From positions 186,001 through 250,000 of the forward strand of contig NZ_JACHWU010000003.1 of NCBI RefSeq assembly GCF_014191605.1: a stretch of 64,000 bases of DNA, in the 5' to 3' direction. Positions within the stretch are counted from its first letter, which is position 1. Each line of letters starts with the position of its first letter. Below are positions 12,607-50,606 of this stretch, piece by piece. This DNA comes from Prauserella isguenensis (lineage in GTDB: Bacteria > Actinomycetota > Actinomycetes > Mycobacteriales > Pseudonocardiaceae). The notes under the pieces were generated by a model. The model had not been told where the DNA came from. It saw nothing but the letters and a program-made list of their open reading frames with translations, and ran no database searches. The translations under genes and the position numbers were made by a program.

Positions 12607-12628
12607 CGCGGTGTGTTCGGCGGTCGGT

Positions 12629-13612: not shown

Positions 13613-13712
13613 GGTTCCATCCTGGCACGGACTACTGGGAGCTGGGTCACTGGTGGAATCCTAGCGAATCCGCAGCTCGGCGCCCCACTGCGGGCGGGGC
13701 GGGTGCGGGCCG

Positions 13713-14202: not shown

Positions 14203-14208
14203 TAACTT
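14203..14208 (+). promoter_or_regulatory. -10 box of leaderless promoter, MarR gene
   Basis: TAACTT ends eight bases before ATG 14217, in an otherwise G+C-rich stretch with no ribosome site. Confidence 0.5.
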
Positions 14209-14216
14209 CGGGCGCC

Positions 14217-14717
14217 ATGAACCGTCCGTTGCCGTTCGACCCGATCGCCCGCGCGGCGCAACTGTGGGAGGACCGCATCGGGCCTTCCGACACCATGGCG
14301 GCCGTCACCGGTGTCATGCGGGTGCAGCAGATCGTCCAGTCGGCGGTCGACGGCGCACTCAAACCGCACGGGCTGACGTTCGCCCGTTACGAGGCGCTGG
14401 TCCTGCTCACCTTCTCCCGCCAGGGCTCACTGCCGATGCGGGTCATGGGTGAACGACTGCAGCTGCACCCGACGAGCGTCACCAATATCGTCGACCGGCT
14501 GGAGTCCGGCGGACTCGTCGCACGAACTCCGCATCCGACCGACCGGCGCACGACCCTCGTCGAGATCACCGATGACGGGCGCGCCCGCTACGAGGTGGCG
14601 ACGAAGGCCGTCACCGACATCGACTTCGGGCTCAGCGGCCTGACCGGGCGACAGACGCAGCAGCTCACCGAACTACTGACCAAGGTGCGCAAAGCGGCAG
14701 GCGACTTCACCGAGTGA
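14217..14717 (+). CDS. MarR family transcriptional regulator
   Basis: The protein has 166 residues with the MarR winged helix-turn-helix at about 55-120: the M-R-V-M-G-E-R-L-Q-L-H-P-T-S-V-T-N-I-V recognition region and the wing containing the D-R-R conserved motif. Terminal helices would make the dimer. Effector and targets are not visible. It stands alone between the divergent MTH1187 gene, about 200 bases away, and a convergent membrane protein, so the MTH1187 gene or itself is a possible target. Its 3' end forms half of a terminator hairpin. Confidence 0.92.
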   Translation: MNRPLPFDPIARAAQLWEDRIGPSDTMAAVTGVMRVQQIVQSAVDGALKPHGLTFARYEALVLLTFSRQGSLPMRVMGERLQLHPTSVTNIVDRLESGGLVARTPHPTDRRTTLVEITDDGRARYEVATKAVTDIDFGLSGLTGRQTQQLTELLTKVRKAAGDFTE

Positions 14718-14731
14718 GCTGCCTGCCGCTT
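14692..14731. terminator. Hairpin overlapping the MarR stop codon
   Basis: AAGCGGCAGGC (14692-14702) pairs with GCCTGCCGCTT (14721-14731); the stop codon is in the loop. It serves the convergent MarR and DUF3817 genes. Confidence 0.65.
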
Positions 14732-14753
14732 GCGACGCGGGGGTGGGTGGCGC

Positions 14754-15110
14754 TCAGGCGCCGACCGGCTCACGGAACAGCGCCGTGCCGCCCTGCCGGG
14801 AACGCTGCGGGCCGTCGAGCTTGCCGCGGCGCAGCGCCCACGTCTCGAACCACCACGTGAACAGCGGCGGGATGCTCGCGAGGAGCGCGGTGACGGTCGT
14901 ACCGGCCGTCCAGCCCAGCGGCTTCGCAACGCCCAGCGTCACGACCAGGTACACCACGAACATGGCGCCGTGCACGGCACCGAGGACGGGAACGCCGCCC
15001 TCACCGAGCTCGACGACGTACTTCAGGAACATGCCGATCAGCAGGCCGGCCCACGACAGCGCCTCGGCCACGGCGACCACGCGGAACAAGACGGCGGCCT
15101 TGTTCGACAA
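14754..15110 (-). CDS. DUF3817 integral membrane protein
   Basis: The 118-residue protein has three predicted membrane helices: an N-terminal V-V-A-V-A-E-A-L-S-W-A-G stretch, a central G-A-V-H-G-A-M-F-V-V-Y-L segment with the conserved H-G, and a third around the A-L-L-A-S-I-P-P-L segment. This is the DUF3817 pattern, common and uncharacterised in actinobacteria. TTG at 15110 is chosen as start because AGGAGG sits five bases upstream; the open frame continues to 15221 without support. No function can be assigned. Confidence 0.85.
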   Translation of the reverse strand: MSNKAAVLFRVVAVAEALSWAGLLIGMFLKYVVELGEGGVPVLGAVHGAMFVVYLVVTLGVAKPLGWTAGTTVTALLASIPPLFTWWFETWALRRGKLDGPQRSRQGGTALFREPVGA

Positions 15111-15383
15111 CGGTTCCTCCTCCGCTCGGATTGGACCGCCTCGGACGGCGGCCACGTCACTTGCTGTATACGTCAACGCCGCCCGCGACGCGCAACATGC
15201 CCGTACGTTCCGTGACGGCACTCACGAACGTAGGTGTGACCTGGTGGGACCGTGACCACACGTAACCGCGCCGTGCGCATTGTCACCACTTCGGGCTCTC
15301 CGCCGCCGCGGCCCTCCGACGATCCGGACGGCCGCGGCATCGGCACCATTGATGGGCCCCGATGACTGTGTGACGATGCGATC

Positions 15384-16505
15384 ATGGCTCAGCGTCAGAC
15401 ACCGCCGTTCCGCGCAGACCACGTCGGCAGCCTGTTGCGCCCCGCCGAACTCCACAGGGCGCGGGAGCAGGCGGCGCAGGGCGCCATCACCGCCGAGCAG
15501 CTCGCTTCCGTCGAGGACGAGGCGATCCGCTCCGTCGTCGCCATGCAGCGCCGGGTCGGCCTGCAGTCGGCCACCGACGGCGAGTTCCGCCGTTCGTCGT
15601 GGCACATGGACTTCATCTACCAGCTCGACGGCGTCTCGAAGAGCGACGAGAAACTGCAGGTGAGTTTCCGCAACGCCGACGGCGAACTCGAGTTCAGCTC
15701 GTCCGGACTGAAGGTCGAGGGCAAGGTCGGCATCGGCCATGCGATCTTCGGCGACCACTTCGACTTCCTCAAGTCCACTGTGGACCCGGAGGTCACGCCG
15801 AAGCTCACGATCCCGTCGCCGAGCATGGTCTACTACCGCGGCGGCAGGGCGGCAGTCGACAGCACGGTCTACCCGGAACTCGACGACTTCTTCGCCGACC
15901 TGGGCTCCGCCTACGCCGAACAGGTCGCGGCGATGGGCCGGCGCGGCTGCCGGTACCTGCAGCTGGACGACACGAGCCTGGCCTACCTCAACGACCCGAA
16001 CCAGCGCGAGCTCGTCGCCGACATGGGCTTCGATCCCGAAACGCTCCATCTGCGCAACATCCGGACGATGAACGCCGCGATCGCTGCCAAGCCCGACGAC
16101 ATGGCGATCACCACGCACCTGTGCCGCGGCAACTACCGCTCGTCCTGGGCCGCCGAGGGCGGTTACGACTTCGTCGCCGAGGCGCTGTTCAACGAGCTCG
16201 ACGTGAACGGCTACTTCCTCGAGTTCGACGACGAGCGCTCGGGCGGCTTCGAACCACTGCGCTTCGTGCCGAAGGGCAAGTACGTCGTACTCGGCCTGGT
16301 CACAACGAAGCGCGGGGAGCTGGAGACGGTCGACGGGCTGCGGCGACGCATCGAGCAGGCATCGCAGTACATCGACCTCGATCAACTCTGCCTCTCCCCG
16401 CAGTGCGGCTTCTCCTCCACCGAGGAGGGCAACGACATCACCGAGGACGAGCAGATCCGCAAACTCGAGCTGATCGTCGAGACGGCCGAGAAGGTCTGGG
16501 GCTGA
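15384..16505 (+). CDS. Cobalamin-independent methionine synthase-like protein (MetE C-terminal domain type)
   Basis: This 373-residue TIM-barrel protein is similar to the catalytic half of MetE and to YxjG/YxjH. It opens with F-R-A-D-H-V-G-S-L-L-R-P and contains the zinc-site elements T-H-L-C-R-G-N and L-S-P-Q-C-G-F. It lacks the N-terminal half of full MetE (about 750 residues), as in archaeal and YxjG-like forms that transfer methyl groups from donors other than methyltetrahydrofolate triglutamate. Substrate is therefore uncertain. ATG 15384 lies about 270 bases beyond the divergent membrane protein. ManA follows after 65 bases. Confidence 0.88.
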   Translation: MAQRQTPPFRADHVGSLLRPAELHRAREQAAQGAITAEQLASVEDEAIRSVVAMQRRVGLQSATDGEFRRSSWHMDFIYQLDGVSKSDEKLQVSFRNADGELEFSSSGLKVEGKVGIGHAIFGDHFDFLKSTVDPEVTPKLTIPSPSMVYYRGGRAAVDSTVYPELDDFFADLGSAYAEQVAAMGRRGCRYLQLDDTSLAYLNDPNQRELVADMGFDPETLHLRNIRTMNAAIAAKPDDMAITTHLCRGNYRSSWAAEGGYDFVAEALFNELDVNGYFLEFDDERSGGFEPLRFVPKGKYVVLGLVTTKRGELETVDGLRRRIEQASQYIDLDQLCLSPQCGFSSTEEGNDITEDEQIRKLELIVETAEKVWG

Positions 16506-16556
16506 CGCCTGGACGGGACCGGCGACACGCGAAACCCCGGGCACCCGCACGTGGCC

Positions 16557-16562
16557 TACAGT
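16557..16562 (+). promoter_or_regulatory. -10 box of leaderless promoter, manA
   Basis: TACAGT ends eight bases before GTG 16571. It implies manA has its own promoter, separate from the upstream MetE-like gene. Confidence 0.45.
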
Positions 16563-16570
16563 GCTGTGCC

Positions 16571-17608
16571 GTGCCGGAATCACTCGAACCGATCTTCCTG
16601 CCCGCCAACCAGCCGCCGCAGTTCTACCGCGGCGGAGCCGCCATCGCCGCGCTCCGCGGGGACGAGGCCCGTGAATACGGACCTGAGGACTGGGTCGCCT
16701 CGACGACGACGCGGTTCACGGGCGGTCCTGACGGGCTGACCCGCCTGCCCGACGGCCGGTGGCTGGCCGACGCCGTCACCGCCGATCCGCGCGGCTGGCT
16801 CGGCGACGCGCACCTGCGCCGGTTCGGCGATTCGACGGCACTGCTGGTGAAACTGCTCGACGCGGGCCAGCGACTGCCGGTCCACTTCCACCCCGACGAC
16901 CGGTTCGCCCGCTCGCATTTCGACTCGCACTTCGGCAAGACCGAGGCGTGGGTCGTTCTCGGCACCACCGGTGACGACGCGACCGTCTACACCGGATTCC
17001 GGGAGACGACGTCCGCCGCGACGGTGCGGGACTGGGTGCGGGACCAGGACGCACCGTCGATGCTCGAGGCGCTCAACGCCGTCCCGGTCACACCCGGCGA
17101 CACGGTCGTGATCCCGGCGGGCCTGCCGCACGCGATCGGCGCGGGCGTGTTCGTCGTCGAACTGCAGCAACCCACCGACTTCTCGCTCACCATGGAGTGG
17201 CGGGGCTTCCTCGACTCCCCCGAGCAGGGCCACCTGGGCATCGGCTTCGACACCGCGTTGCAGGTCCTGGACACCTCCGGGTGGGACGCCGAACGCCTGG
17301 CCTCGCTGATCCGCCGCGGCCACAACCCCGACCCCGACGCGGCCGGTGGAACGACCGAACTGCTCGCACCGCTCGCCGACGGGTTCTTCCGCGCCGACCG
17401 TCTGCGCCCCTCCGAGGCGCCGTCCGACGCCGTCACGCTCACGCCGGGATTCGCCGTCCTGGTGGCGATCGACGGCGCGGGCACCCTCACGTCCGACCGC
17501 GGCGGCAGCGCGATCGCACGAGGCGACACCGTCGTCGTTCCGTACGGAGCAGGACCACTGCGACTGTCCGGCGGCGTCACCGTCCTCCGCTGCCGCCCAC
17601 CGGCCTGA
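16571..17608 (+). CDS. manA: Class I mannose-6-phosphate isomerase
   Basis: The 345-residue protein interconverts mannose-6-phosphate and fructose-6-phosphate. The zinc site is visible as P-V-H-F-H-P-D followed by G-K-T-E-A-W, and the later I-P-A-G-L-P-H-A-I-G segment supplies the second His; the C-terminal cupin-like part is present. It is somewhat shorter than the E. coli enzyme (391). I took GTG 16571 since homology begins immediately and a -10 box sits eight bases upstream. No mannose transport gene is adjacent. It is convergent with the MFS gene only 21 bases away. Confidence 0.88.
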   Translation: MPESLEPIFLPANQPPQFYRGGAAIAALRGDEAREYGPEDWVASTTTRFTGGPDGLTRLPDGRWLADAVTADPRGWLGDAHLRRFGDSTALLVKLLDAGQRLPVHFHPDDRFARSHFDSHFGKTEAWVVLGTTGDDATVYTGFRETTSAATVRDWVRDQDAPSMLEALNAVPVTPGDTVVIPAGLPHAIGAGVFVVELQQPTDFSLTMEWRGFLDSPEQGHLGIGFDTALQVLDTSGWDAERLASLIRRGHNPDPDAAGGTTELLAPLADGFFRADRLRPSEAPSDAVTLTPGFAVLVAIDGAGTLTSDRGGSAIARGDTVVVPYGAGPLRLSGGVTVLRCRPPA

Positions 17609-17629
17609 TCCGCCCTCGGCGATCCGCGG

Positions 17630-19051
17630 TCACCGCCCGGTGCGGACGCGGCGACGCCCGGCCGAACGCGTGCGCGGGCGCAGGAACGCAGGACCGCGAC
17701 CCGGATGCGCCCGGACGGCCCGGCCGCGGCGCTCCCGCACCCCGGCCGCGGCGGCCCGGCCGGCACCGCCGTCGCTGCGACGACCGCCCGGCCACCACAC
17801 CCGCACGCGGTGGAGCGGGTACGCGGGACGCTGGAACGCGACCACCGCCGCGGCGACGAACGGTACCGACGCGGCGGCGGCCGCCGTGGCCCAGGTCGTC
17901 GCGACGGCGAGCGGATGAGCCAACGTGATCAGACCGACCACCACCGCGGGCGCGCCGGAGCCGAGGTAGAACGCCACGTGCAGCGCTCCGGTGATCGCGC
18001 CCTTGCGCGCGACGGGTGTGACGGCGTCGACCGCCGCCGACGCCCCGCCGTACGCCAGCCCGTGCCCGGCACCCGCGATCACGGCGGCCACGAGGGTCAC
18101 CGTGGTGGACGCGCCCGCGGTCTGCGCCAGTAACGCCAGGCTCGTCAGCAGTGCGCCGAGGCCCACGACCTGTGCCCGACGGTCGCGCAGCCTGCCGACG
18201 AGCGGCTGGGTCACCACCGAGCACACCAGCACCAGGCCGAGAATCGCGCCCGTCACCGCCGGGTTCGTCTGCCCCGCCCGGTCGAGCAGCGTGGGGATGA
18301 TCGCCAGGAACAGGCCCGCCACCGTCCACGCGAGGAACCCCGCGGCGGCCGCCGAGACGAACACCCTGCGCATGCCACGCGGAATCTCCGGCTTCGTGGG
18401 GCGCCACCGCGTGAGGCCCGACGTCACCGTCATCCCGGGCGCACCGGCCCCGAGGCGGGACACGAGACGCCATCCGATCGCCAACAGGCCGAGATGGAGC
18501 GCGAACGGCAGCATCTCCGGGGCGGGCGCGTACCGTGCCAGCAGTCCGCCGACGACCGGTCCCGCCGCGGTGCCGCCCACGAAGGCGATACCGGCCAGTG
18601 CTGCCGGAGCGATCCGCCTGCCGCCGTGCAGCGAGGTCAGCGCACTCGCGGCCGCCGTCGCCGCGCCGAGCGCGAGACCCTGCGCCGCACGGCCCACCAG
18701 CAGCCATCCGGTGCCGGTGGCGATCACGAAACACGCCGAACCTGCCGCCGCGACCAGCAGCGCCCCACGCAGCACCGGCCGCGCACCCACCGCATCGGTG
18801 GCCTGCCCGAACAACAGCAACGCCGGTGCGCTCACCAGGGCGAACGTCGCGTAGACGACCGTCATCGTCAGATCGTCGATCCCGAACGCCCGTTGGTACG
18901 CGGGATACAGCGTGCTCGGCAGATACGCGCCGAGCGTCAACACGACGAGCACGTAGGCACCGGTACCGGCCGGCGATGTGAGAACGGGGCGACGGGGGAC
19001 AGCGAGGCGTTCCATCAGCAGCACACGACCAGGATGCCGCCGGTGATCCAT
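17630..19051 (-). CDS. Major facilitator superfamily transporter
   Basis: The 473-residue protein has about 12 hydrophobic helices; the loop 2-3 MFS signature is seen as F-G-Q-A-T-D-A-V-G-A-R-P. A basic, low-complexity tail of about 65 residues follows the last helix, which is unusual; a frameshift in the final 200 bases cannot be excluded. ATG 19051 is preferred over ATG 19015 because a weak -10 (TTGATT) lies six bases upstream of it. It is divergent from a LysR regulator with a short, A+T-rich spacer, so it is probably that regulator's target. Substrate unknown; drug-efflux-type proteins look like this. Confidence 0.85.
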   Translation of the reverse strand: MDHRRHPGRVLLMERLAVPRRPVLTSPAGTGAYVLVVLTLGAYLPSTLYPAYQRAFGIDDLTMTVVYATFALVSAPALLLFGQATDAVGARPVLRGALLVAAAGSACFVIATGTGWLLVGRAAQGLALGAATAAASALTSLHGGRRIAPAALAGIAFVGGTAAGPVVGGLLARYAPAPEMLPFALHLGLLAIGWRLVSRLGAGAPGMTVTSGLTRWRPTKPEIPRGMRRVFVSAAAAGFLAWTVAGLFLAIIPTLLDRAGQTNPAVTGAILGLVLVCSVVTQPLVGRLRDRRAQVVGLGALLTSLALLAQTAGASTTVTLVAAVIAGAGHGLAYGGASAAVDAVTPVARKGAITGALHVAFYLGSGAPAVVVGLITLAHPLAVATTWATAAAAASVPFVAAAVVAFQRPAYPLHRVRVWWPGGRRSDGGAGRAAAAGVRERRGRAVRAHPGRGPAFLRPRTRSAGRRRVRTGR

Positions 19052-41049: not shown

Positions 41050-42021
41050 ATGTACGCAGCGACGGTCACCCGCACCGACGGCCCGGCGGCCCTCGAGGTC
41101 ACCGAGACACCCGCGCCGACACCCGGCGACGGCCAGGTACTGATCGACGTCAAGGCGGCCGGGGTCAACTTCCCCGACCTGCTGCTGACGAAGAACATGT
41201 ACCAGTACAAGCCCGAGCCGCCGTTCACGCTCGGCGGCGAGCTGGCGGGCGTCGTCCGCGAGGCCCCGGCCGGATCCGGTTTCTCCGCCGGTGACCGCGT
41301 CGCCGCGAGCACGACGACGGGCGCCTTCGCCGAACAGGTCCTCGCACCGGTCACGAACGTGTTCCCCCTGCCGGACGCGATGAGTTTCGCCGCGGGCGCC
41401 TGCCTGCCGATGAACTACCTGACCATGACGTTCGCCCTCCTCAAGCGCGGGCAACTGCAGCGGGGCGAGACCGTGCTCGTGCACGGCGCCGCGGGCGGGA
41501 TCGGCACCGCCACCATCCAGCTCGCGGCCGCGATGGGCGCACACGTCGTGTCCGTGGTGTCCACAGAGGACAAGGCCCGGTTCGTCTCGTCGGTCGGTTC
41601 CCACGACGTCGTCCTGGCCGACGGATTCAAGGACTCGGTCTCCGAACTCACCGGTGGCCGCGGCGTCGACGTGGTGGTCGACCCGGTCGGCGGCGACCGC
41701 TTCACCGACTCGCTGCGCAGTCTCGCGCCGTTGGGGCGACTGCTGGTCATCGGTTTCACGGCGGGTGACATCCCGACCGTCAAGGTCAACCGCCTGCTGC
41801 TGAACAACATCGACGTCCGCGGAGTCGCGTGGGGCGCCTACGTCATGGCCGACCCGAGCCGCCTCCGCACCGAGTGGGACGTGCTGCTGCCGTACCTCGA
41901 GTCCGGTGTGGTCGACCCGCCGATCGCGGCGACCTACCCGCTGTCCCGGGCGGGCGAAGCGGTCGCACAGCTGGAGGACCGCGCGGTGCTCGGCAAGGTG
42001 GTGGTCGACCCGACGGCGTGA
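41050..42021 (+). CDS. Zinc-independent NADPH:quinone oxidoreductase-like MDR protein
   Basis: The 323-residue medium-chain reductase has the catalytic GroES-like domain (1-120) and the nucleotide-binding domain with V-L-V-H-G-A-A-G-G-I-G-T-A. Zinc ligands are absent, placing it with quinone reductases and related enoyl reductases. It probably reduces quinones or other activated carbonyls with NADPH. ATG 41050. Its 3' end overlaps the convergent glycosyltransferase by 88 bases, an unusual amount of overlap. Confidence 0.9.
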   Translation: MYAATVTRTDGPAALEVTETPAPTPGDGQVLIDVKAAGVNFPDLLLTKNMYQYKPEPPFTLGGELAGVVREAPAGSGFSAGDRVAASTTTGAFAEQVLAPVTNVFPLPDAMSFAAGACLPMNYLTMTFALLKRGQLQRGETVLVHGAAGGIGTATIQLAAAMGAHVVSVVSTEDKARFVSSVGSHDVVLADGFKDSVSELTGGRGVDVVVDPVGGDRFTDSLRSLAPLGRLLVIGFTAGDIPTVKVNRLLLNNIDVRGVAWGAYVMADPSRLRTEWDVLLPYLESGVVDPPIAATYPLSRAGEAVAQLEDRAVLGKVVVDPTA

Positions 42022-43115
42022 CCACCCCGCGCTCGGGCGGGGTCGGCCAGGCGGCGATACAGCTCTCGGTGCCGTTCGGCGGCACCCGCCCAGCTGTATC
42101 GCCGCGCCAGCGCCCGCCCACGCTCCCGGTGACGGTCCGGCTCGGACAAAGCGCCGGCCAGCGCGTCGGCGAAGCCGCGGCGGTCGCGTGCGAACCGGAC
42201 GGCGGAGCCGAACACCTCGCGCAGCACCGGCAGGTCCCTCGTGACGACCGGAACCCCCGCCGCCAGCGCCTCCATCGCCGCGAGCCCGAATCCCTCCTTC
42301 GTGGACGGAAAGCCGAAGACCTCCGCCGCGGCGACGACGAGCGGCAACTCGTCGTGCTCGACCGCGCCGAGCACAACCGGTTCCACGCCCAGTTCGGCGG
42401 CACGGGCGTCGAAGCGCGCGCGGTAGTCGCGGTAGTCGAACAACGTCTCCCCGCCGACGATCACCAGCCGCAGTTCCGGATCCCGCTCCCGCAACGCGAA
42501 CCCCTCGAGCAGGTCGATCGTTCCTTTCCGCGGTTCGATACCTCCCACCGTGACGACGTAGCGGCCGAGTTCGTCGCGCCACCGGCCCGTGCCGTCGACG
42601 TCCGCCGCCGCACGCTCGAACCGGTCCGCCTCGACGCCGTTCGGGATCACGGTGGCGTCGATCCCCCAGCCGTCACGCAGTTCCTCCGCGACGGCTCCGG
42701 ACACGCACACGTGCGCGTAGGGCGCTGTGATCGCGTGTTCGTGGCATGCCGCCAGTTCCGGGGTGGTGAACCGGTCGATGTGGTGCACGGTACGCACGCA
42801 TTCGCCCGCCGCGTTGGCGCTGATGCAGTCCTGGGCGTGCACGATGTCGTACGCGCGGCCGTCGAAGGCCTCACGCAACGTCTCGATCGACCGCAGTATG
42901 CGCGGGCCGACGCCTTCGCCCTCGCGCGCCCCGAAGGGCACGACCCGGACCGTGACCCGTGGGTCGACGCGGCGGAAGAACCCTGTGTCGCCGTCGCGTC
43001 CGAGGGTCCACACCGTGACGTCCTCCCCCGCATCCGCAAGCGCCTCGGCGAGCGCCAGCGTGTGGACCACACCGCCACGGGGTTTCGTGGAGTAGCTCAG
43101 CAACGCGATCCTCAC
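41934..43115 (-). CDS. MSMEG_0565-type GT4 glycosyltransferase (Nit1C-like cluster)
   Basis: This 393-residue GT-B enzyme has the N-terminal R-I-A-L-L-S-Y-S-T-K-P-R-G-G start, the acceptor-domain H-A-Q-D segment, the GT4 donor site E-P-R-K-G-T-I-D and the E-x7-E motif in F-P-S-T-K-E-G-F-G-L-A-A-M-E. GTG 43115 follows GGAGGG and overlaps the upstream stop (GTGA). The last ~30 residues run antisense through the end of the quinone oxidoreductase gene. It is the distal gene of the conserved cluster; a sugar is presumably attached to the product made by the upstream enzymes, but donor and acceptor are unknown. Confidence 0.88.
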   Translation of the reverse strand: MRIALLSYSTKPRGGVVHTLALAEALADAGEDVTVWTLGRDGDTGFFRRVDPRVTVRVVPFGAREGEGVGPRILRSIETLREAFDGRAYDIVHAQDCISANAAGECVRTVHHIDRFTTPELAACHEHAITAPYAHVCVSGAVAEELRDGWGIDATVIPNGVEADRFERAAADVDGTGRWRDELGRYVVTVGGIEPRKGTIDLLEGFALRERDPELRLVIVGGETLFDYRDYRARFDARAAELGVEPVVLGAVEHDELPLVVAAAEVFGFPSTKEGFGLAAMEALAAGVPVVTRDLPVLREVFGSAVRFARDRRGFADALAGALSEPDRHRERGRALARRYSWAGAAERHRELYRRLADPARARGGHAVGSTTTLPSTARSSSCATASPARDSG

Positions 43116-43945
43116 GATGTCCCTCCGTACGCCTCGGGTTTTCGCTCGCCGAGGTGGTGCAGCACCCGCCGGGCGTTGGCCAGCTCGCCCGCCACGTCCA
43201 CCTCGGCCACGGCGATTCCCGCCTTGCTCCACGTGCGCGCCAGGATGTCCCCGCCGGGGCCGACGACCTTGGCCTGACCGAGGAAACGCATGCCGCCCAG
43301 CGCACCGGTCTGGTTGGCCGAGGCGAGCACCACCTGGTTCTCGGCGGCGCGCGCCTGGTCGTAGAGGTCGAACAGCCGTGCCTGGCGGTCCTGCGACATG
43401 CGGGGTGCGCGGTTGGTGATGCTGGTCGGCCACGCGGACAGGCACGCGATGATCTCCGCCCCGTCGACGGCGAGACTGCGCGCCGATTCGGGGAACGTCT
43501 TGTCGTAGTCGATCAGCATGCCAACCCTGCCCGCCGGCGTGTCGAATGCCGCGAACCGGTCGCCCGCGGCGTAGACGGCCCGCTCGCCGGGCGGCTGGTG
43601 CACCTTGCGATGCCTGCCGAGCACACCGTCACCGGTGACGGCCAGCGCCGTGTTGAAGCGGACGTCGCCGTCGGCCTCGCAGTAGCCGACGCACACGACC
43701 ATGTCCCGTGCCAGCGAGCCGATCCGCGCCAGGTGAGGGTCGTCGGGCGGCAGCGCGGGAGGCAGATTCCCGTCGTCGGGTTCGCGCAGGTCCGGCAGAT
43801 ATCCGCCGACGGCTGCGTCCGGCAGCACCAGCAACTGTGCGCCGGAATCGCGTGCGTGCTCGATCAGGGTGGCGATGCGGTCGAGGTCGAAATCGAGATC
43901 GCGGCCGAAGTGGGCGGCGACCGCGGCGATGCCGGTCAGAGCCAT
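43112..43945 (-). CDS. Nitrilase-superfamily pseudoenzyme
   Basis: The 277-residue carbon-nitrogen hydrolase fold protein aligns end to end with its upstream neighbour. The catalytic Glu of the E-K-C triad is Asp43 (L-V-L-P-D-A-A), the Lys is retained (Lys114, G-R-H-R-K-V-H-Q-P) and the nucleophile Cys is Asp146 (G-M-L-I-D-Y-D-K-T-F-P-E). The DNA codons at 43817-43819 and 43508-43510 are GAC, so this is not a reading error in translation. Without Cys it cannot form the thioester intermediate. The frame, length and hydrophobic core are intact, so it is not a decaying gene; a structural or regulatory partner role with the active copy is plausible. It is coupled by GTGA to the glycosyltransferase. 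Confidence 0.88.
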   Translation of the reverse strand: MALTGIAAVAAHFGRDLDFDLDRIATLIEHARDSGAQLLVLPDAAVGGYLPDLREPDDGNLPPALPPDDPHLARIGSLARDMVVCVGYCEADGDVRFNTALAVTGDGVLGRHRKVHQPPGERAVYAAGDRFAAFDTPAGRVGMLIDYDKTFPESARSLAVDGAEIIACLSAWPTSITNRAPRMSQDRQARLFDLYDQARAAENQVVLASANQTGALGGMRFLGQAKVVGPGGDILARTWSKAGIAVAEVDVAGELANARRVLHHLGERKPEAYGGTS

Positions 43946-43952
43946 GTCGTGA

Positions 43953-44792
43953 TCATCCCGCAGGTGCGCCGGCGGGGGCATACGCCTCGGGCCTGCGGTC
44001 GCGCAGGTGCGCCATCGAGCGACGTGCCGTCGCCAGCGCCTCGGCCACGTCGACCTCGGCGACCGCCAGCCCGTCACTCACACCCGTGTCCGCGACCACC
44101 TCACCACCAGGGTCCACGATCTTCGCGCTCGCCACGAACCGCAGGTCACCGAACGTGCCCGACTGGTTGGCCGACACCCACACGATCTGGTTCTCCAGTG
44201 CCCGCGCACGATCGAACAGATCGAAACGATGTTTCCACCGGTCCTGGGCGAGGTCGGCCGCCGCGTGGGTGCGACTGCCGGGCCATGCCGACATGCACAC
44301 CCCGATCTCTGCTCCGTCGAGTGCCAGGGTCCGCGCCGACTCGGGAAATGCCTTGTCGTAGCAGATCATCATGCCGAGCCGGCCGACCGGAGTGTCGAAC
44401 GCGGTGAACCCGTTGCCCGCGCGGTACGTGGCGTCCTCCGACAGCGGCTGGTGCACCTTGCGATGGCTGCCGAGCACGACACCGTCGGAGACGCACACGG
44501 CGCTGTTGTAGAGCACACCCCCGTCGGATTCGCAGTAGCCGGCCGTGACGACCAACTCGCCCGCGAGCTCGGCGAGTCTGCGGATCTCCGGGCCGTCGGC
44601 GTCCAGGGCGGGCGGCCCGTCGGCGCCGCCGTCGAGGTTCGCCAGATACCCGCCCAGACACGCCTCGGGCAGTGCCAGGAGCCGGACGCCGTCGGCGCGG
44701 GCACGGTCGATCAACGCGGCGATGCGCGCGAAGTCCTCGTCGAGGTCACGGCCGAACGGGGCGGCCGCCGCCGCGATACGCACCCCGGTCAT
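43953..44792 (-). CDS. Nitrilase / carbon-nitrogen hydrolase (active type)
   Basis: The 279-residue enzyme has the full triad: Glu43 (L-A-L-P-E-A-C), Lys112 (G-S-H-R-K-V-H-Q-P) and Cys144 (G-M-M-I-C-Y-D-K-A-F-P-E). It should hydrolyse a nitrile or amide C-N bond through a Cys thioester. It is shorter than the Nit6803-type nitrilase (about 340 residues) of the cyanobacterial cluster, so nitrile versus amide preference is open. ATG 44792 overlaps the upstream stop (ATGA). The degenerate paralogue follows after seven bases, which suggests tandem duplication. Natural substrate unknown; cluster relatives have been tied to nitrogen starvation and, in a Pseudomonas, to growth on cyanide. Confidence 0.9.
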   Translation of the reverse strand: MTGVRIAAAAAPFGRDLDEDFARIAALIDRARADGVRLLALPEACLGGYLANLDGGADGPPALDADGPEIRRLAELAGELVVTAGYCESDGGVLYNSAVCVSDGVVLGSHRKVHQPLSEDATYRAGNGFTAFDTPVGRLGMMICYDKAFPESARTLALDGAEIGVCMSAWPGSRTHAAADLAQDRWKHRFDLFDRARALENQIVWVSANQSGTFGDLRFVASAKIVDPGGEVVADTGVSDGLAVAEVDVAEALATARRSMAHLRDRRPEAYAPAGAPAG

Positions 44793-46183
44793 GCCACCGT
44801 GCCCAGCCCGGTCACCGCCGTGTCGAGCACGGGGATCTCCTCTCCGTCGGGCCACCGCAGCCGGACACCGCCGGTCGCGGTCAACTCGCCGCATTCGGCC
44901 GACACGGCGGGCCCGGCCGCCGGTTCCCGGTCGCCCACGGTGACCATCGCGAAGCCCGGGAAGCACGTCAGCCAGTCGCCCATCGTCGCGTTCGACGGCC
45001 GTGGCACGTCCGCGACGTCCAGTACGGCGCCGCACCCGCTCGCCTCCGCCAGCATGCCGAGGGTTCCGGCGATTCCCGCCATGGACACGTCCTTGGCGGC
45101 CCGCGGGCGCACCGCGGCCACCGAGCTCTGCATCGTGCGGAGCTCGGTGGTCCGCCGAGTGGACGTCGAGTCCCACTGCGCACCGGTGTAGCCGGGCCGC
45201 CACGACCCACCGAGGTCGGCGGTGAGCCGCACCCGTTGTCCCGGCGCGCCGCCACCTCCCGGCACCGGGTCGGGAGTCCTACCGAGCGCCGTCACCGCCA
45301 ACGACGCCGGTACGCCGAGCTGCGTGTGCCCGCCGAGCACGGGAACGTCCCAGGCCCGGCTCGCGGCCCGCAGCCCGGACAGCACCCGCGAGGCGAACGA
45401 CGCGTCCCGCGCGCCCAGCGCGTCGAGCAGCCCGACCGGGCTCGCACCCATCGCGGTCAGGTCGTTGACGTTGACCAGCACCGAACACCAGCCCGCCCAC
45501 TCCGGGTCGCGTTCGACCATGGACGGCAGGATCGCGTCGCACGCGGCGACCGTGTCGCCACCCGGAACGGGTACACCGTCGTCGCCGACGAACCCGGACA
45601 CGCCCGTCATGCCCTGCAGCAGGGAGCCGAGGGCGGTCTTGGTCGACCGCACCAGCGCCGCCACCCGGCCGATCGGGTGCCGCATCAGCACATGCGGTCT
45701 GCCGGACACGTCCACCTCCCGGACACGCTGCCAGCCGAGGCGGCGGAACATCCGTTCGTTGGCCGGCTGCACCCTCGCCTCGAACCGCAACACGCCCGCG
45801 TTCTCCGCGTACGCCTGCGCCGCCCTGACGAGCGCGGCGCCGACGCGGGTGCCCTCGCGGCGGTGTGCCGGAGCCACCACGAGCCTGCTGCCGTACCACC
45901 ACCCGATGTCTGCCCCGTCTGTCGCCGAATGCAGGCGCACACCTCCGAGCACGGCCCCGGACTGGTCCCTGGCGAGAAGCACCACTGTGCGCGGATCACC
46001 GTCGTGGCCGTCCGTGTCGTCGTTGTCGAAGATCCGTTGCTCGTCGACGAACACCGTGCGCCGCAACGCGCGGTACTCCGCGCGTGCGGCATCGTCGTCC
46101 GCGGGGCCGATACGAAACCGCGGTTGCCGCGCCACGCTGACCGGATCGCCGAGACCCGCCAGTACGTCGGGATACATGCTCAC
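44789..46183 (-). CDS. GNAT acetyltransferase fused to AIR-synthase-like domain (MSMEG_0567/Sll0786 + Sll0787 types)
   Basis: The protein has 464 residues. Residues about 20-165 form a GNAT domain (V-V-A-P-A-H-R-R-E-G-T-R-V-G-A-A binds acetyl-CoA); residues about 170-464 are an AIR-synthase/PurM-like domain with V-N-V-N-D-L-T-A-M-G-A-S-P and a glycine-rich later segment. In cyanobacteria these are the separate genes sll0786 and sll0787. GTG 46183 overlaps the upstream TGA (GTGA); ATG 46177 is possible. A PurM-like domain suggests ATP-driven activation or ring closure, and the GNAT suggests N-acylation of an amine. The reaction is not known. Confidence 0.88.
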   Translation of the reverse strand: MSMYPDVLAGLGDPVSVARQPRFRIGPADDDAARAEYRALRRTVFVDEQRIFDNDDTDGHDGDPRTVVLLARDQSGAVLGGVRLHSATDGADIGWWYGSRLVVAPAHRREGTRVGAALVRAAQAYAENAGVLRFEARVQPANERMFRRLGWQRVREVDVSGRPHVLMRHPIGRVAALVRSTKTALGSLLQGMTGVSGFVGDDGVPVPGGDTVAACDAILPSMVERDPEWAGWCSVLVNVNDLTAMGASPVGLLDALGARDASFASRVLSGLRAASRAWDVPVLGGHTQLGVPASLAVTALGRTPDPVPGGGGAPGQRVRLTADLGGSWRPGYTGAQWDSTSTRRTTELRTMQSSVAAVRPRAAKDVSMAGIAGTLGMLAEASGCGAVLDVADVPRPSNATMGDWLTCFPGFAMVTVGDREPAAGPAVSAECGELTATGGVRLRWPDGEEIPVLDTAVTGLGTVA

Positions 46184-47253
46184 GCTCCCGCCGCACTCAG
46201 CGCACCGCAGGCGCCACAGGCGGCGCAGCCCGCCTGTTGATCGGCGCCGGTCATACCCGCGGCACGCAGGAGGGCCGCGACGCGTTCGGTCACGTCACGG
46301 ACCAACGGCGCCGGGGGCGGCTGCACGCCGTCGGCACGCGCCAGCGTGCCCGCCATCGGACGCATCGGGACGACGAACGGATAGACACCGTGGTCGACGA
46401 GCTCGGCGGCGCCCGCCACCAGCTCGTCCGGGTCCTCGCCGAGGCCGACGAGCAGGTACGTCGAGACCCGGTTGCGGCCGAACACCCGCACCGACTCGTC
46501 CCACGCCTCCCAGTACTCGCTCAGCGGCACGGTCGACTTGCCCGGCATCCAGCGGGCCCGCACGGCGTCGTCGAGCGATTCGACATGGATGCCGATCGAC
46601 GTCGCACCCGCCTGGCGCAACTCCGTCAGCACGCCGAGGTCGCCGGGTGGTTCGATCTGCACCTGGATCGGCAGTCCCGGCACGGCCCGGAGAACGGCCC
46701 GGACGCAGCGTACGAGGTGGCGCGCTCCCCTGTCCGGTCCCGCCGTCGTCCCGGTGGTGAGCACCAGCTGCCGCACCCCGTCGAGGCGTACGGCCGCCTC
46801 GGCTACCTCGGCCAGCTGGGCGGGTGTCTTCGCGGCGACCGTCGACCCCGCCCGCAGCGATTCCTCGATGGTGCAGAACCGGCACCGCTGGTCCTCGACG
46901 TAGCGGATGCACGTCTGCACCACTGTGGAAGCGAGCACGTCCCTGCCGTGCAGCAGGGCGATCCGGTGATACGGCACGCCATCCTCAGTGGACAGTTCGT
47001 AGAACCTCGGCCTGGCGACGGGTTCCACCGACAGGCCGAGGTCCCGGGTCCCGTCGAAAACCCTGCCGTCGCGCACGGTGTAGGGACTCTCCGGGTTCAG
47101 CGGCAGGGTCGCGGCGGCACCACCCACCACGAGATGGCCGTCGTCGCTCGGCCCGGCACCCTTGGTGCGCCGCACCGGTGTCTCCGTCCGGACTCCCTGC
47201 ACCGCCAGATCGACACGCGTCGACACGACCGTGCTTTCGGCATCAGTTGTCAC
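46180..47253 (-). CDS. MSMEG_0568-type radical SAM protein with CX8CX2C cluster motif
   Basis: The 357-residue protein has cysteines at 115, 124 and 127 (T-C-I-R-Y-V-E-D-Q-R-C-R-F-C), spaced CX8CX2C in place of the usual CX3CX2C of radical SAM enzymes, followed by a TIM-barrel-like S-x-x-x-x-x-x-V-x-x-L region including L-V-L-T-T-G-T-T and S-I-G-I-H-V-E-S. It probably holds a 4Fe-4S cluster and cleaves S-adenosylmethionine. The C-terminus ends in a Cys-rich G-C-A-A-C-G-A-C tail, possibly a second cluster or metal site. GTG 47253 follows GGAGGT. It is the likely key chemistry step of the cluster; substrate unknown. Confidence 0.9.
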   Translation of the reverse strand: MTTDAESTVVSTRVDLAVQGVRTETPVRRTKGAGPSDDGHLVVGGAAATLPLNPESPYTVRDGRVFDGTRDLGLSVEPVARPRFYELSTEDGVPYHRIALLHGRDVLASTVVQTCIRYVEDQRCRFCTIEESLRAGSTVAAKTPAQLAEVAEAAVRLDGVRQLVLTTGTTAGPDRGARHLVRCVRAVLRAVPGLPIQVQIEPPGDLGVLTELRQAGATSIGIHVESLDDAVRARWMPGKSTVPLSEYWEAWDESVRVFGRNRVSTYLLVGLGEDPDELVAGAAELVDHGVYPFVVPMRPMAGTLARADGVQPPPAPLVRDVTERVAALLRAAGMTGADQQAGCAACGACGALSAAGA

Positions 47254-47290
47254 GACGTACCTCCGAACTCACCGACGGGCCCGATCACGG

Positions 47291-47803
47291 TCACCACATG
47301 TAGGTCGAATTGATGATCGCGCCCTTGCGCGCGTAGTGGATGAGCGCGTCCTGCACATCGAGCGGATGCGTGGGGATCACACCCTCGATGAGGTCCTCCT
47401 CGCGCAGCCCGTGCAACGACAGTCCGAACCGGCAGCAGTACACCTTGCCGCCTTCGGCTATGAACGTCTTGAGCTGTTCGTTGATGTTGTGCTCGCCGGG
47501 AAACGCCGAACTGCCCGTCGTCGGGAACCCGCGCGTGGCCATGCAGTTCATCGAACCGGGTCCGTAGAAGTAGATGGCGGCCTCGAAACCCTTCCGCAGC
47601 GCGCGGGTCGCCTGCAGGATCGCGACGAAGCTCACCGACGACTCGTGTGCGATGCCGTGCACCAGCGTGAAGTAGGACTGCCCGGGTTCTGCCTGGTAGT
47701 CGGGGAAGACCTTGGTGCCGCCGTAGATGTTGGAGCCGTCGGGAAGCGACGGGTGCGGGATCTCGTTCAGGCTCTGCTGTTCGGTCTCGGTCAGTTCGGG
47801 CAC
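47291..47803 (-). CDS. MSMEG_0572/Sll0783-type nitrogen starvation response protein
   Basis: The 170-residue protein contains N-I-Y-G-G-T-K-V-F, F-Y-G-P-G-S-M-N-C-M and G-K-V-Y-C-C-R-F-G-L-S-L-H-G, which match the conserved Sll0783 family. Two adjacent Cys (C-C) and a Met/Cys pair could bind metal or act in sulphur chemistry. The fold may be DsrE-like, but I cannot confirm that. Sll0783 in Synechocystis is strongly induced by nitrogen limitation and affects PHB formation (from memory). GTG 47803 follows AAGGAG. Radical SAM follows 37 bases downstream. Confidence 0.88.
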   Translation of the reverse strand: MPELTETEQQSLNEIPHPSLPDGSNIYGGTKVFPDYQAEPGQSYFTLVHGIAHESSVSFVAILQATRALRKGFEAAIYFYGPGSMNCMATRGFPTTGSSAFPGEHNINEQLKTFIAEGGKVYCCRFGLSLHGLREEDLIEGVIPTHPLDVQDALIHYARKGAIINSTYMW

Positions 47804-47854
47804 TGTTGCTCCTTCGTCGGTGTCGCGGATTTCCTGACTACGGCCGGCCGGATG

Positions 47855-48682
47855 TCAGCCGTAGAGCTTGTCGAAGTTCTCGCGGAACGCGAGGCGTGCG
47901 AGTTCCCCGTCGCCCGCGGCACCCCTGAGGGCCGCGAGTTCGGCGCCGTGGTCTCCCCAGGGCTCGTCGCTGGCGAACAGCACACGGTCGGCGCCGATGC
48001 CTCGCCGGGAGATCTCCTCGGCGAGCCAACGCGGCGCGAAGCCGATCGCCCACGACAGGTCGGTGTAGACGTGTTTGCCCGCCTCGATCCAGGAGAAGAA
48101 GCGGGAGCCGATCAGCTTGATGTGGCCGCTCATTCCACCGCCGAAGTGCACCAGGTGGATCTTCACGCGGTGGCCGTAGTCGTCGACGAGCGCGCCGACG
48201 TTGTCGATGTCCGAAGCGGCGCCCGGCGACGTGTGCACGTGAACGACGAGGTCGAGCGCCTCGGCGGTCGCGAAGATCTCGTCCAGCAACGGGCGGCAGT
48301 GCGGGTCCGTGGGATCGCCGCCGAGCAGGAAACTGAGCTTGAGTGCACGCACCCCCGGCTCGCCGGCGAGTGCCAGCGCCGCGCGGGTGCGCTGCTCGTC
48401 ACGCGGCAACGGGGAGACCCACAGTGCGGCACGGATCCGATCGTCCGAGGCTGCAGCCTCCACGCAGAGTTCGTTGAACGAGAACGACACGGCCGGGTCG
48501 GGCACGCCGTAGTTCGGGATCACCAACGCGCGCTCGGTTCCCTCGGCGTCCAGGTCCGCGATCAGCTCGGCGATCGTCGCCCGTGCCCGGGAGTCGGGCT
48601 TCACCGCAGGCCCGCCGTAGAACGGGAACGCCAGCATCGAACCGAGGTGCCGGTGCGCATCACAGAAGTCGAACCGTGTCAC
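47855..48682 (-). CDS. Amidohydrolase-2 family metal-dependent hydrolase
   Basis: The 275-residue TIM-barrel protein has the metal motif D-A-H-R-H at the N-terminus (HxH), a later V-H-V-H-T-S-P and I-H-L-V-H-F-G-G, and a late F-A-S-D-E-P-W acid, together matching amidohydrolase-2 enzymes (decarboxylase/hydrolase group). Start GTG 48682 lies six bases after GGAGG. It sits inside the cluster between the FAD oxidoreductase and the 0572-type gene, a place where I do not recall an amidohydrolase in the classical cluster. Likely a hydrolysis or decarboxylation step, substrate unknown. Confidence 0.87.
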   Translation of the reverse strand: MTRFDFCDAHRHLGSMLAFPFYGGPAVKPDSRARATIAELIADLDAEGTERALVIPNYGVPDPAVSFSFNELCVEAAASDDRIRAALWVSPLPRDEQRTRAALALAGEPGVRALKLSFLLGGDPTDPHCRPLLDEIFATAEALDLVVHVHTSPGAASDIDNVGALVDDYGHRVKIHLVHFGGGMSGHIKLIGSRFFSWIEAGKHVYTDLSWAIGFAPRWLAEEISRRGIGADRVLFASDEPWGDHGAELAALRGAAGDGELARLAFRENFDKLYG

Positions 48683-48758
48683 TGATATCCTCCCACATCG
48701 CTGTGTCGCCGCGGCCGCACCACGGCGGCGGTGGCCGCGCCGCCGTTCTCGTGGCCGG

Positions 48759-50087
48759 TCATGCGACCGTGCTCGGTGACGTCCGGAACACACCGGCCGG
48801 GCAGGTGTCCCTGCGGGTTCCAGCGATCCACGGCACGTCGAGTTCTGCGCCCCGGGCTGTGTCGACGATCCGGCGCGCGAGGTATTCCGCGTCGCGGCCG
48901 ACCCCGCTGAATCGCCCCGATCCCCACGTGCGCTGCCACGGCAGCCCCAGGAAGTACAGACCCGGACACCCCGTGGCACCTCGCTGATGTGCCGGATATC
49001 CGCGCCCGTCGAAGACCGGAACGTCGATCCAGCAGTGGTCCATGTCGAAGCCGGTGGCCCACACCACAGACGTGATTCCCGTGCTGTCCAGCACGAGCTC
49101 CCCGGTCTCGTCCGCCGGCTCCCACACCGGGACGTAGCGCCGCTCGGCGGGCGCGTCGAACCCGTGCAGTTCCACATACGCGTCGATCGAGTCCTTGATC
49201 CCCTCGGACACGGCGTCGGCGGCGTCGAGGTTCTCGCGCAGATCCGGGAGGAACCGCACGACCCCGGATTCCGCATCGGACAACCGCCCGTACAGCCGCA
49301 TCCCCTCGAGGGCGAAGGCCCGCAGGTCGATGTCGCGACCGCCGCCCCGTCCGGTGACGTAGTGATTGGCCCGGAATCGGAGGGCATCGACGTCGGAGAA
49401 CTCGTCGATGCCGCGGCGGTAATGGCCCATGTCCTCGAGCCAGTCGACGACGTCCCTGCCGCGGTACCGGCGTGCGACCCTCGGCGCGCCGCCCACGGAC
49501 AGGTGTACCACGCGCCCGGCCAGATGCAGGTCCTCGGCGATCTGGCATCCGGACTGTCCCGATCCGACCACGAGCACCTCGCCGCCGGGGAGCTGCCGCG
49601 GATTCCGGTACGCCGACGAGTGCAGCTGGGTCAGTCCCGAAGGGAGGCGCTCCGCCAGTCGCGGGATCCGCGGGACTTGATACGGCCCGGTGGCCACCAC
49701 GACCTGGTCGGCGGTCATCGTTCCGTGCGATGTGGACAGTACGAAGATCGTGCCGTCGTGGCACAGCCGTGTCACGTCCACTCCCGTGACGAGCGGACAC
49801 GGGAAGGATCGTGCGTAGTCCTCGACGTAGGCCGCGACCTCGTCCCGGGACATGAATCCGCCGGGATCGCTTCCCTCGTAGGGAAAACCGGGGAGGTCGC
49901 ATTGCCGGTTCGGGGTGACGAGACAGAACGAGTCCCAGCGCCGACTGCGCCATTCGAATCCCGGACTCTCCCGCTCCAGCACGACATGCTCGACCCGGTC
50001 CCGAGCCAGGCAGTAACTCATCGCCAGCCCGGCCTGTCCCCCGCCGACGATCGCGACAGTCCGATGCATTCCGTCCACAGTGGTCAT
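48759..50087 (-). CDS. MSMEG_0569-type FAD-dependent oxidoreductase (flavin monooxygenase-like)
   Basis: The 442-residue protein has two Rossmann dinucleotide motifs, G-G-G-Q-A-G near residue 16 for FAD and G-S-G-Q-S-G near residue 175 for NADPH, with W-R-S-R-R-W-D-S-F as in flavin-containing monooxygenases. It probably hydroxylates or oxidises an amine or carbonyl with O2. ATG 50087 overlaps the upstream stop (ATGA) and follows AAAGG; ATG 50069 is possible. It is the second gene of the cluster. Confidence 0.9.
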   Translation of the reverse strand: MTTVDGMHRTVAIVGGGQAGLAMSYCLARDRVEHVVLERESPGFEWRSRRWDSFCLVTPNRQCDLPGFPYEGSDPGGFMSRDEVAAYVEDYARSFPCPLVTGVDVTRLCHDGTIFVLSTSHGTMTADQVVVATGPYQVPRIPRLAERLPSGLTQLHSSAYRNPRQLPGGEVLVVGSGQSGCQIAEDLHLAGRVVHLSVGGAPRVARRYRGRDVVDWLEDMGHYRRGIDEFSDVDALRFRANHYVTGRGGGRDIDLRAFALEGMRLYGRLSDAESGVVRFLPDLRENLDAADAVSEGIKDSIDAYVELHGFDAPAERRYVPVWEPADETGELVLDSTGITSVVWATGFDMDHCWIDVPVFDGRGYPAHQRGATGCPGLYFLGLPWQRTWGSGRFSGVGRDAEYLARRIVDTARGAELDVPWIAGTRRDTCPAGVFRTSPSTVA

Positions 50088-50365
50088 CGGTCGAACCTTT
50101 CGACGAGCACAGCGGCGTCGGCGGGCAGGTCCGTAGCGAGATCGTCGAGCGCCACGACGGTGGCTGCCGCCCTGCCGCACGGGAATCCGTGCACCGCGGC
50201 GACTCGCTCCGACGCGACGACCAGCGCCGCCCTGGTCCGTTCCAGGAAATCGCCGATCCGGTACCGTCCACCGGTCCGGAGGTGCTCCTCGATCACGGTC
50301 GACGGGGAGTAGAACCGGCGCGACACACCGTCCGGCCAGCGCACGTGGAAATACACTTCGGGCAC
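50084..50365 (-). CDS. MSMEG_0570-type nitrogen starvation response protein
   Basis: The 93-residue protein starts V-P-E-V-Y-F-H-V-R-W-P-D-G and contains Y-S-P-S-T-V-I and G-F-P-C near residue 70, matching the small conserved 0570 family found only in these clusters. No catalytic motif is visible; it may be a structural or binding partner. GTG 50365 is chosen because AGGAG is five bases upstream; the frame extends to 50428 without signal. It is the first gene of the nine-gene operon. Confidence 0.85.
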   Translation of the reverse strand: MPEVYFHVRWPDGVSRRFYSPSTVIEEHLRTGGRYRIGDFLERTRAALVVASERVAAVHGFPCGRAAATVVALDDLATDLPADAAVLVERFDR

Positions 50366-50453
50366 GAACACTCCTCTCACGGGGTGGTTCTGCAACGGAC
50401 GGACGGGATACGATCGGCCCGCGGCCATCGCGGCGACGACTTCGCTGCAGTCA

Positions 50454-50477
50454 CTCCGAACACCCGTGTGTTCCGAG
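50454..50477. promoter_or_regulatory. Candidate operator upstream of the Nit1C-like operon
   Basis: Imperfect palindrome CTCCGAACAC-CCGT-GTGTTCCGAG (8 of 10 positions symmetrical) in the 241-base region between the operon and the divergent methyltransferase gene. Confidence 0.45.
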
Positions 50478-50594
50478 CACCGACGGCGATCGGATGTGAC
50501 GAGAACCAGTAGAGCCGCCGACGATTGCCGACCGATGTCACCCGGACTACCCGTGCGTTACCGAGAACGCGCCTTGTTACGAGAAAACGTCCGA

Positions 50595-50600
50595 TAGCCT
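50595..50600 (+). promoter_or_regulatory. -10 box of leaderless promoter, three-domain methyltransferase gene
   Basis: TAGCCT ends six bases before GTG 50607; TTGTTA (50574-50579) lies 15 bases upstream as a possible -35. Confidence 0.55.
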
Positions 50601-50606
50601 CGGGCG

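Follow-up and report, generated by a model that had tools for sequence, protein, structure and literature searches.

A stretch of 64,000 nucleotides from the actinomycete Prauserella isguenensis (the window; contig NZ_JACHWU010000003.1, positions 186,001 to 250,000) carries on its minus strand nine genes that are best explained as a form of the MSMEG_0565-0572 (gpr) nitrogen-starvation operon that is common among actinomycetes and related to Nit1C; the reading as a whole, with the roles proposed below for the individual proteins, has a probability of roughly 0.5. Two of the genes encode paralogous members of the carbon-nitrogen hydrolase family, designated here NitA and NitB, and the new element is that the catalytic cysteine and glutamate are both replaced by aspartate in every NitB examined. 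We advance as a speculative proposal, unlikely to hold in all its parts, that NitB is a nitrilase fold repurposed by these replacements in the active site (Glu and Cys each becoming Asp, with Lys unchanged), either as a conserved ligand-presenting partner or as a new aspartate-based enzyme, and that it would serve a widespread, nitrogen-starvation-linked pathway of actinomycetes to an undescribed glycosylated nitrogenous metabolite.

In Mycobacterium smegmatis the operon is GlnR-dependent, is induced more than 500-fold without nitrogen and is needed for peroxide resistance (PMC6039565), with GlnR binding upstream of MSMEG_0572 (PMC4222082, PMC3662644). Nit1C was defined in 2005 by seven genes and a subfamily-1 nitrilase, and its function was left open (PMC1199592).

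Gene layout and family membership

Start and stop analysis agrees with the initial annotation on nine minus-strand genes, on their order and on their outer limits at 41934 and 50365. The set opens with a 0570-type small protein of 93 amino acids with a GTG start (50084-50365; TIGR04042, 98 bits, cut-off 79.85) and an MSMEG_0569-type oxidoreductase dependent on flavin adenine dinucleotide, hereafter the flavoprotein (442 residues, 48759-50087), which scores 617.1 bits with TIGR04046 (cut-off 498.35). Then come an amidohydrolase-2 protein (275 residues, 47855-48682), a DsrE-like protein of the 0572/Sll0783 type (170 residues, 47291-47803; TIGR04044, 255.4 bits, cut-off 109.85) and an MSMEG_0568-type radical SAM protein (357 residues, 46180-47253). 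The latter reaches 489.8 bits with TIGR04043 (cut-off 303.7), has a PF04055 domain too and is the only match among those listed for the genome. They are followed by a GNAT-AIRS fusion of 462 residues (44789-46177, alternative GTG start at 46183), with 120 bits to TIGR04045 (cut-off 68.45) and 468.6 bits to TIGR04050 (cut-off 312.2), by NitA (43953-44792) and NitB (43112-43945), and by an MSMEG_0565-type GT4 glycosyltransferase of 393 residues with a GTG start (41934-43115), whose match to TIGR04047 (456.8 bits, cut-off 259.85) spans residues 2-355. The glycosyltransferase tail, about 38 residues past the family profile, overlaps the 3' end of a convergent oxidoreductase-like frame (41934-42021).

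Six of these proteins exceed the curated NCBIfam cut-offs for the MSMEG_0565, 0567, 0568, 0569, 0570 and 0572 families, and all six are encoded on one strand within 8.4 kb, which bears out the kinship to the MSMEG_0565-0572 / Sll0783-0787 cluster proposed at first. Three of the nine lie outside these families, yet all three recur as components of the operon. The 0572-type protein scored 21.8 bits against PF02635, under the cut-off of 22.7, and no sequence relative of it was found in the PDB up to an E value of 0.1. Among the 80 named NitB loci, 47 gave no profile match for 0570, although some loci are cut by contig ends. Six genomes of one other family carry 0570 and the flavoprotein in one open frame, with 0570 N-terminal (L059, L227, L228, L229, L230 and L231), while two further loci of that family (L226, L232) have separate frames. 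Because both share one frame in these six genomes, the arrangement suggests that 0570 may work as a partner of the flavoprotein.

Exact 4-base overlaps occur at four of the eight junctions (0570/flavoprotein, radical SAM/GNAT-AIRS, GNAT-AIRS/NitA and NitB/glycosyltransferase), the radical SAM/GNAT-AIRS overlap being counted only if GNAT-AIRS uses the GTG start at 46183; the earlier statement that most junctions overlap in this way was too generous. The remaining junctions are gaps of 76 (flavoprotein/amidohydrolase), 51 (amidohydrolase/0572), 37 (0572/radical SAM) and 7 bases (NitA/NitB), and GGAGG- or AAGGAG-like ribosome-binding sites lie ahead of the genes after the three larger ones. Between 41700 and 50800 no promoter-like sites were found and there was one terminator-like site, against a mean of 2.2 in shuffles. 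Given that a divergent frame begins at 50607 and the convergent frame ends at 42021, the nine-gene set is bounded on both sides. Judged by comparison of sequences, the arrangement is far beyond chance, because the same genes recur in mostly the same order in many relatives, and the assignment of the nine genes to an operon of the gpr type is close to certain.

Relation to the gpr operon and to Nit1C

The window shares with the gpr operon a glycosyltransferase, two carbon-nitrogen hydrolases, GNAT-AIRS, radical SAM, the flavoprotein, 0570 and 0572. One locus from the same order (L057) has its genes arranged exactly as from 0572 to 0565, NitA taking the place of 0571 and NitB that of 0566; from this arrangement and the published annotation, rather than from M. 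smegmatis sequence, we infer the orthology of NitA and NitB to 0571 and 0566. The window differs in its additional amidohydrolase, in having NitA next to NitB, and in beginning with 0570 and the flavoprotein. The two carbon-nitrogen hydrolases of the M. smegmatis operon (PMC4222082, PMC6039565) also mean that the hydrolase duplication, initially regarded as unusual, is not. A selenoprotein has been proposed through read-through of MSMEG_0571 into the flavoprotein (PMC6039565). In the window (43945-43955) it is NitB that comes after the TGA stop of NitA, the flavoprotein being located upstream, and a read-through fusion of that type is therefore impossible in this layout.

Homologues of 0572, radical SAM, GNAT, AIRS, 0570 and the flavoprotein are likewise found in Nit1C, which has a hydrolase in its set and, in Burkholderia, an accompanying glycosyltransferase. 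In contrast to Nit1C as defined in 2005, the window is without the subfamily-1 (Nit6803) nitrilase (TIGR04048), joins in a single 462-residue protein the GNAT and AIRS functions that are separate there, and has NitB and the amidohydrolase in addition. The idea that a compound named viridisamide is a Nit1C product found no support; the papers found under that name deal with cyanobactins and other cyanobacterial or natural-product topics.

Distribution of the nine-gene form

The radical SAM protein was searched for in two sets: 60 genomes, made up of 59 relatives and the one that contains the window, and an even draw of 396 genomes from the phylum, again with the window's own among them. Besides the own genome, 32 exceeded the cut-off (11 among the relatives and 21 in the phylum draw) and 31 regions were taken, one genome with a 3.7-kb contig (G181) being left out; with five genomes below the cut-off added, 36 regions were annotated. 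Twelve of them carry NitA, NitB and the glycosyltransferase, ten of these also the amidohydrolase. Two show a form with NitA only, one of which (L060) was assigned by 0572 and radical SAM, with NitA on another contig (L232). Thirteen are more distant clusters with radical SAM proteins 43-49% identical, and in the last nine a more distant radical SAM gene stands alone, except for a distant AIRS match in one of them. Three of six congeners had a radical SAM match over the cut-off.

A scan with a NitB alignment was added, from which the best 80 of 470 relatives were used, a set that leans to close kin. Five loci present twice were removed for the distinct counts, leaving 87 distinct NitB loci; they were kept in the NitA/NitB alignment, the gene-order table and the distance correlations described below. 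One supposed nitA (L060), which is 34% identical and encodes a different hydrolase, is not counted as NitA. The glycosyltransferase accompanies NitB in 87/87 distinct loci and NitA in 86/87, and the amidohydrolase is present in 79 of the 83 that have the 0572 gene in view, one of the four without it (L121) ending at a contig edge. Named hosts include Amycolatopsis, Kutzneria, Actinokineospora, Herbidospora, Microbispora, Streptomyces and Rhodococcus.

These counts bear on the initial view of the operon as an unusual variant produced by lineage-specific duplication and insertion of an amidohydrolase. The window does hold the amidohydrolase and twin hydrolases, and in the even phylum draw only four of the 21 further genomes whose radical SAM match passed the cut-off have NitB, with the amidohydrolase in two of those four. 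The neighbourhood comparison, however, finds amidohydrolase and twin hydrolases together in many actinomycete genera at the frequencies just given, which refutes the description as unusual and leaves this view extremely improbable. Since it occurs across the named hosts and NitB loci, the nine-gene form, a version of soil actinomycetes, is, as gene content indicates, common among actinomycetes and not peculiar to this genome.

A mobilizable plasmid of Rhodococcus qingshengii, pLP1 (L236), carries an eight-gene version of the operon between IS3-family transposase genes. By reading, its NitB has Asp-Lys-Asp and its NitA Glu-Lys-Cys, the same as in the window, and three further Rhodococcus records have a similar NitB.

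Active sites and ancestry of NitA and NitB

Catalysis in the nitrilase superfamily needs a cysteine nucleophile together with a glutamate and a lysine. Both window proteins belong to PF00795, whose domain spans NitB, and they are 55% identical by BLASTP. NitA keeps an intact Glu43-Lys112-Cys144 triad within the motifs LPEA...HRKVH...ICYDK, whereas NitB reads LPDA...HRKVH...IDYDK, that is, Asp43-Lys114-Asp146. Among distinct NitA sequences, Glu, Lys, Cys and a second active-site glutamate are present in 95/95. In distinct NitB sequences, the window's included, Asp, Lys and Asp are found in 88/88 and the second glutamate (E121) in 87, being Asp in one. The lysine count is biased by retrieval because the patterns of the NitB scan contain this residue; they do not contain the two aspartate positions. 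In an alignment of 100 NitA and 93 NitB, which takes in the window's proteins and five duplicates of each kind, the division between Glu/Lys/Cys and Asp/Lys/Asp is complete, and few other columns separate the two proteins cleanly (A/T150, R/L191 and D/E267 in NitB numbering). Thirteen outgroup hydrolases and two hydrolases of a third paralogue all have Glu, Lys and Cys.

Neither protein approaches the Nit1C/Nit6803 nitrilase family TIGR04048 (40.2 and 30.1 bits, cut-off 502.6). The genome contains six PF00795 matches, none of which is over the cut-off for the Nit6803 nitrilase. The best named relatives of NitA and NitB are N-carbamoylputrescine amidase (TIGR03381) and archaeal nitrilase (NF040852), with 1j31, 3ivz and 5h8i as related structures; both proteins are far below the cut-offs and NitB, unlike that branch, is without the catalytic Cys and Glu. 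The description of the pair as two nitrilases needs correction: both belong to PF00795 by sequence, but neither is a Nit1C nitrilase and only NitA keeps the catalytic cysteine.

A maximum-likelihood tree, for which 15 of the 80 NitB-scan loci were picked by hand, placed NitB in one clade (support 100/97) and NitA in another (96/98). NitA, NitB and the third, non-cluster paralogue (L190, L205) stand apart from the outgroup (100/100). The tree gives no resolution of the branching order among the three, and several outgroup branches are long. The third paralogue, 49-54% identical and with an intact Glu-Lys-Cys triad, occurs in two genomes of the family with NitA only (L234, 9476-10582; L235, 9034-10908), where no other operon gene was matched within about 20 kb.

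Against three congeners, the ratio of non-synonymous to synonymous substitution rates (dN/dS) was 0.107, 0.125 and 0.121 for NitB and 0.084, 0.082 and 0.175 for NitA. Because these ratios are low, NitB is judged to be under purifying selection and not decaying. A decaying pseudogene was rejected on dN/dS together with residue invariance, and a sequencing error on occurrence in many genera. An AlphaFold2 model of NitB has a mean predicted local distance difference test score (pLDDT) of 94.1. We consider it likely that NitB is not a nitrilase or amidase, and it would probably bind something rather than cut it. The missing cysteine argues against the hydrolase label in its deposited annotation, "carbon-nitrogen hydrolase family protein". 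It argues equally against the "aliphatic amidase" annotation of MSMEG_0566 (PMC6039565, PMC4222082), which the authors of the first of these studies gave as putative.

The same data could alternatively describe an active enzyme with aspartate-based chemistry in a nitrilase fold, which might form amides, proceed through an acyl-aspartyl intermediate or depend on a metal. The conservation of D43, K114, D146 and E121, the confident model and the low dN/dS all speak for it. However, in the open-licence literature of PubMed Central no precedent was found, and no title or abstract opening there was relevant to cysteine loss in NitB or to cysteine-less or inactive nitrilases; we regard an active NitB as improbable.

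Association of NitB with the glycosyltransferase

In all 92 NitB loci (87/87 distinct), the operon gene that follows NitB on the same strand is the glycosyltransferase. The distance between the two is at most 50 bases in 82 of the 87 and 233 bases at maximum, with the exact 4-base overlap in 54/87. Of the 86 distinct loci with NitA, 81 have it immediately before NitB. In the five others (L045, L046, L055, L057 and L058) the hydrolases are separated by 0570 and the flavoprotein, by the flavoprotein, or by the flavoprotein (with 0570 in L057), radical SAM and GNAT-AIRS, the pair of NitB and glycosyltransferase being intact in all five.

A further family was covered by searching 61 genomes with TIGR04050 and inspecting all nine matches over the cut-off (eight regions). 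Its cluster runs in the order 0572, radical SAM, GNAT-AIRS, NitA, 0570 and flavoprotein, and NitB, glycosyltransferase and amidohydrolase are all missing from it in the eight genomes, out of nine, whose NitA could be seen. The ninth (G497) is cut before NitA, and in G157, split over two contigs, there is a weak glycosyltransferase-like match of 47 bits at a distance of about 6 kb (L232). Because NitB and the glycosyltransferase are jointly missing from these clusters, gene content suggests that they may be one module added to a core of 0572, radical SAM, GNAT-AIRS, one active hydrolase, 0570 and the flavoprotein, a division that makes the pathway testable piecewise. That NitB acts with the glycosyltransferase is put forward only tentatively.

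Pairs of an active enzyme and a dead partner are well known in other enzyme families, and NitB might accordingly be the catalytically dead subunit of a NitA-NitB hetero-oligomer, shaping or regulating the NitA active site. Nitrilase-fold proteins assemble through conserved surfaces, the two proteins are close paralogues in the tree and, as given above, they are nearly always neighbours. On the other hand, that adjacency is broken in five loci and the one between NitB and the glycosyltransferase never, the partial correlation of NitA and NitB evolutionary distances is negative, and a structural subunit need not keep two specific active-site acids in 88/88 sequences. This arrangement is on balance unlikely.

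Several observations weigh against an operon of the gpr type in which NitB serves the glycosyltransferase. Clusters that lack both NitB and the glycosyltransferase come from one family and hence reflect few events. A glycosyltransferase without NitB occurs in Burkholderia and in distant clusters, and therefore does not need NitB in general. Over 80 loci, the partial correlation of evolutionary distances was 0.12 for NitB and glycosyltransferase and -0.20 for NitB and NitA, so that there is no clear co-evolution signal for either partnership. A GlnR box at full consensus was not found, the best site having 7 of 9 letters in the window and 6 of 9 in three congeners; among relatives, 8 of 9 letters were matched in 12/72 (5.2 expected from dinucleotide shuffles) and 9 of 9 in none (0.2 expected). 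Finally, the literature searched, including the available portions of PMC1199592 and PMC6039565, holds no established operon product, in agreement with what the initial annotation had stated.

A possible pathway: biosynthesis or nitrogen scavenging

GNAT enzymes acylate amines, AIRS-family enzymes activate amide oxygens with ATP, and GT4 enzymes transfer sugars. The roles suggested below for GNAT-AIRS, NitA and NitB rest on such general family chemistry, including that of the Cys/Glu/Lys triad. In the operon, radical SAM and flavin steps would assemble a small nitrogen-containing compound or oxidise it. The GNAT part of the fusion could then acylate an amine, and the AIRS half activate the resulting amide with ATP. 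NitA would hydrolyse a C-N bond (amide, ureide or nitrile), giving an acid or an amine plus ammonia, and the amidohydrolase might add a metal-dependent hydrolysis or decarboxylation. NitB, unable to form the nitrilase thioester, could hold a positively charged product or intermediate in its acidic pocket and, in the least certain step, hand an amine to the glycosyltransferase encoded next to it for glycosylation. A glycosylated nitrogenous metabolite is a possible product, and we lean slightly towards a biosynthetic rather than a catabolic operon.

The operon could instead be catabolic, with cyanide-derived nitriles, amides or ureides serving as nitrogen sources. Such a role has been proposed for Pseudomonas Nit1C, where cyanotrophy has been tied to the nit1C genes nitA-H (PMC11049912). 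NitA does resemble N-carbamoyl and nitrile hydrolases, and distant relatives offer further support. In L053 a nitrile hydratase beta gene (TIGR03888, over the cut-off) overlaps 0572, beside a frame with the alpha-type CTLCSC motif (about 10236-12069), and in L068 a beta gene and a CTLCSC frame lie about 4-6 kb from the 0572 gene (11347-18146); the homologous thiocyanate hydrolase may be an alternative identity for these genes. Carbamate-kinase-like genes are found in L052 and L069, an amino-acid-kinase domain in L053, and FdrA-like genes, under the FdrA cut-off, in L053 and L069. Against this, neither window hydrolase is the Nit6803 nitrilase, simple hydrolysis needs no GNAT, AIRS, radical SAM or glycosyltransferase steps, and the M. 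smegmatis phenotype is peroxide resistance with altered NADPH (PMC6039565). Nitrogen scavenging is accordingly rather unlikely as the main role.

In L052, L053 and L069 the carbamate-kinase-like or FdrA-like genes precede an MSMEG_0565-like glycosyltransferase near the radical SAM gene, and the pathway in its distant form perhaps includes a carbamoyl step. With the Nit6803 nitrilase in Burkholderia, NitA in the actinomycete type and nitrile hydratase in L053, lineages seem to have exchanged the C-N hydrolase that lies near the shared core.

The amidohydrolase

The amidohydrolase scores 62.8 bits with PF04909 (cut-off 26.4), its AlphaFold2 model has a pLDDT of 85.9, and it constitutes a recurrent ninth part that is missing from the published operon descriptions examined, in their available portions. 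It retains the HxH motif, two more histidines and the aspartate of the amidohydrolase-2 family; H10, H12, H148, H179, D239 and K115 are invariant in 19/19 aligned rows, and from family knowledge we take these to be likely metal ligands. No NCBIfam family or named subfamily was matched over its cut-off, one relative reaching 20 bits with NF042924 (cut-off 500). Against the PDB its profile gave weak matches to two related decarboxylase sequences alone, the closest solved sequence being 5-carboxyvanillate decarboxylase (4inf, E 2.2e-6, weak similarity).

The plasmid records gave no match to it, nor did two genomes of the same order whose clusters lack it (G131, G354). Eight of the 13 distant clusters also contain the amidohydrolase, which there adjoins the radical SAM gene; an unassigned gene lies between amidohydrolase and 0572, of 208 and 224 residues in the two that were read.

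The upstream region

The divergent intergenic region (50366-50606, no strand assigned) is a probable promoter in which no GlnR box is convincing, as judged from the sequence, an alignment with three congeners and a motif scan. Another GlnR pattern was found in 11 of 73 loci, against 1.8 expected from simple shuffles. Upstream of the operon lie two GTAAC elements 19 bases apart (50557-50580), a spacing that does not fit the GlnR motif. The alignment with congener L050 does not reach this site, one element reads GCAAC in L049, and both are kept in L048.

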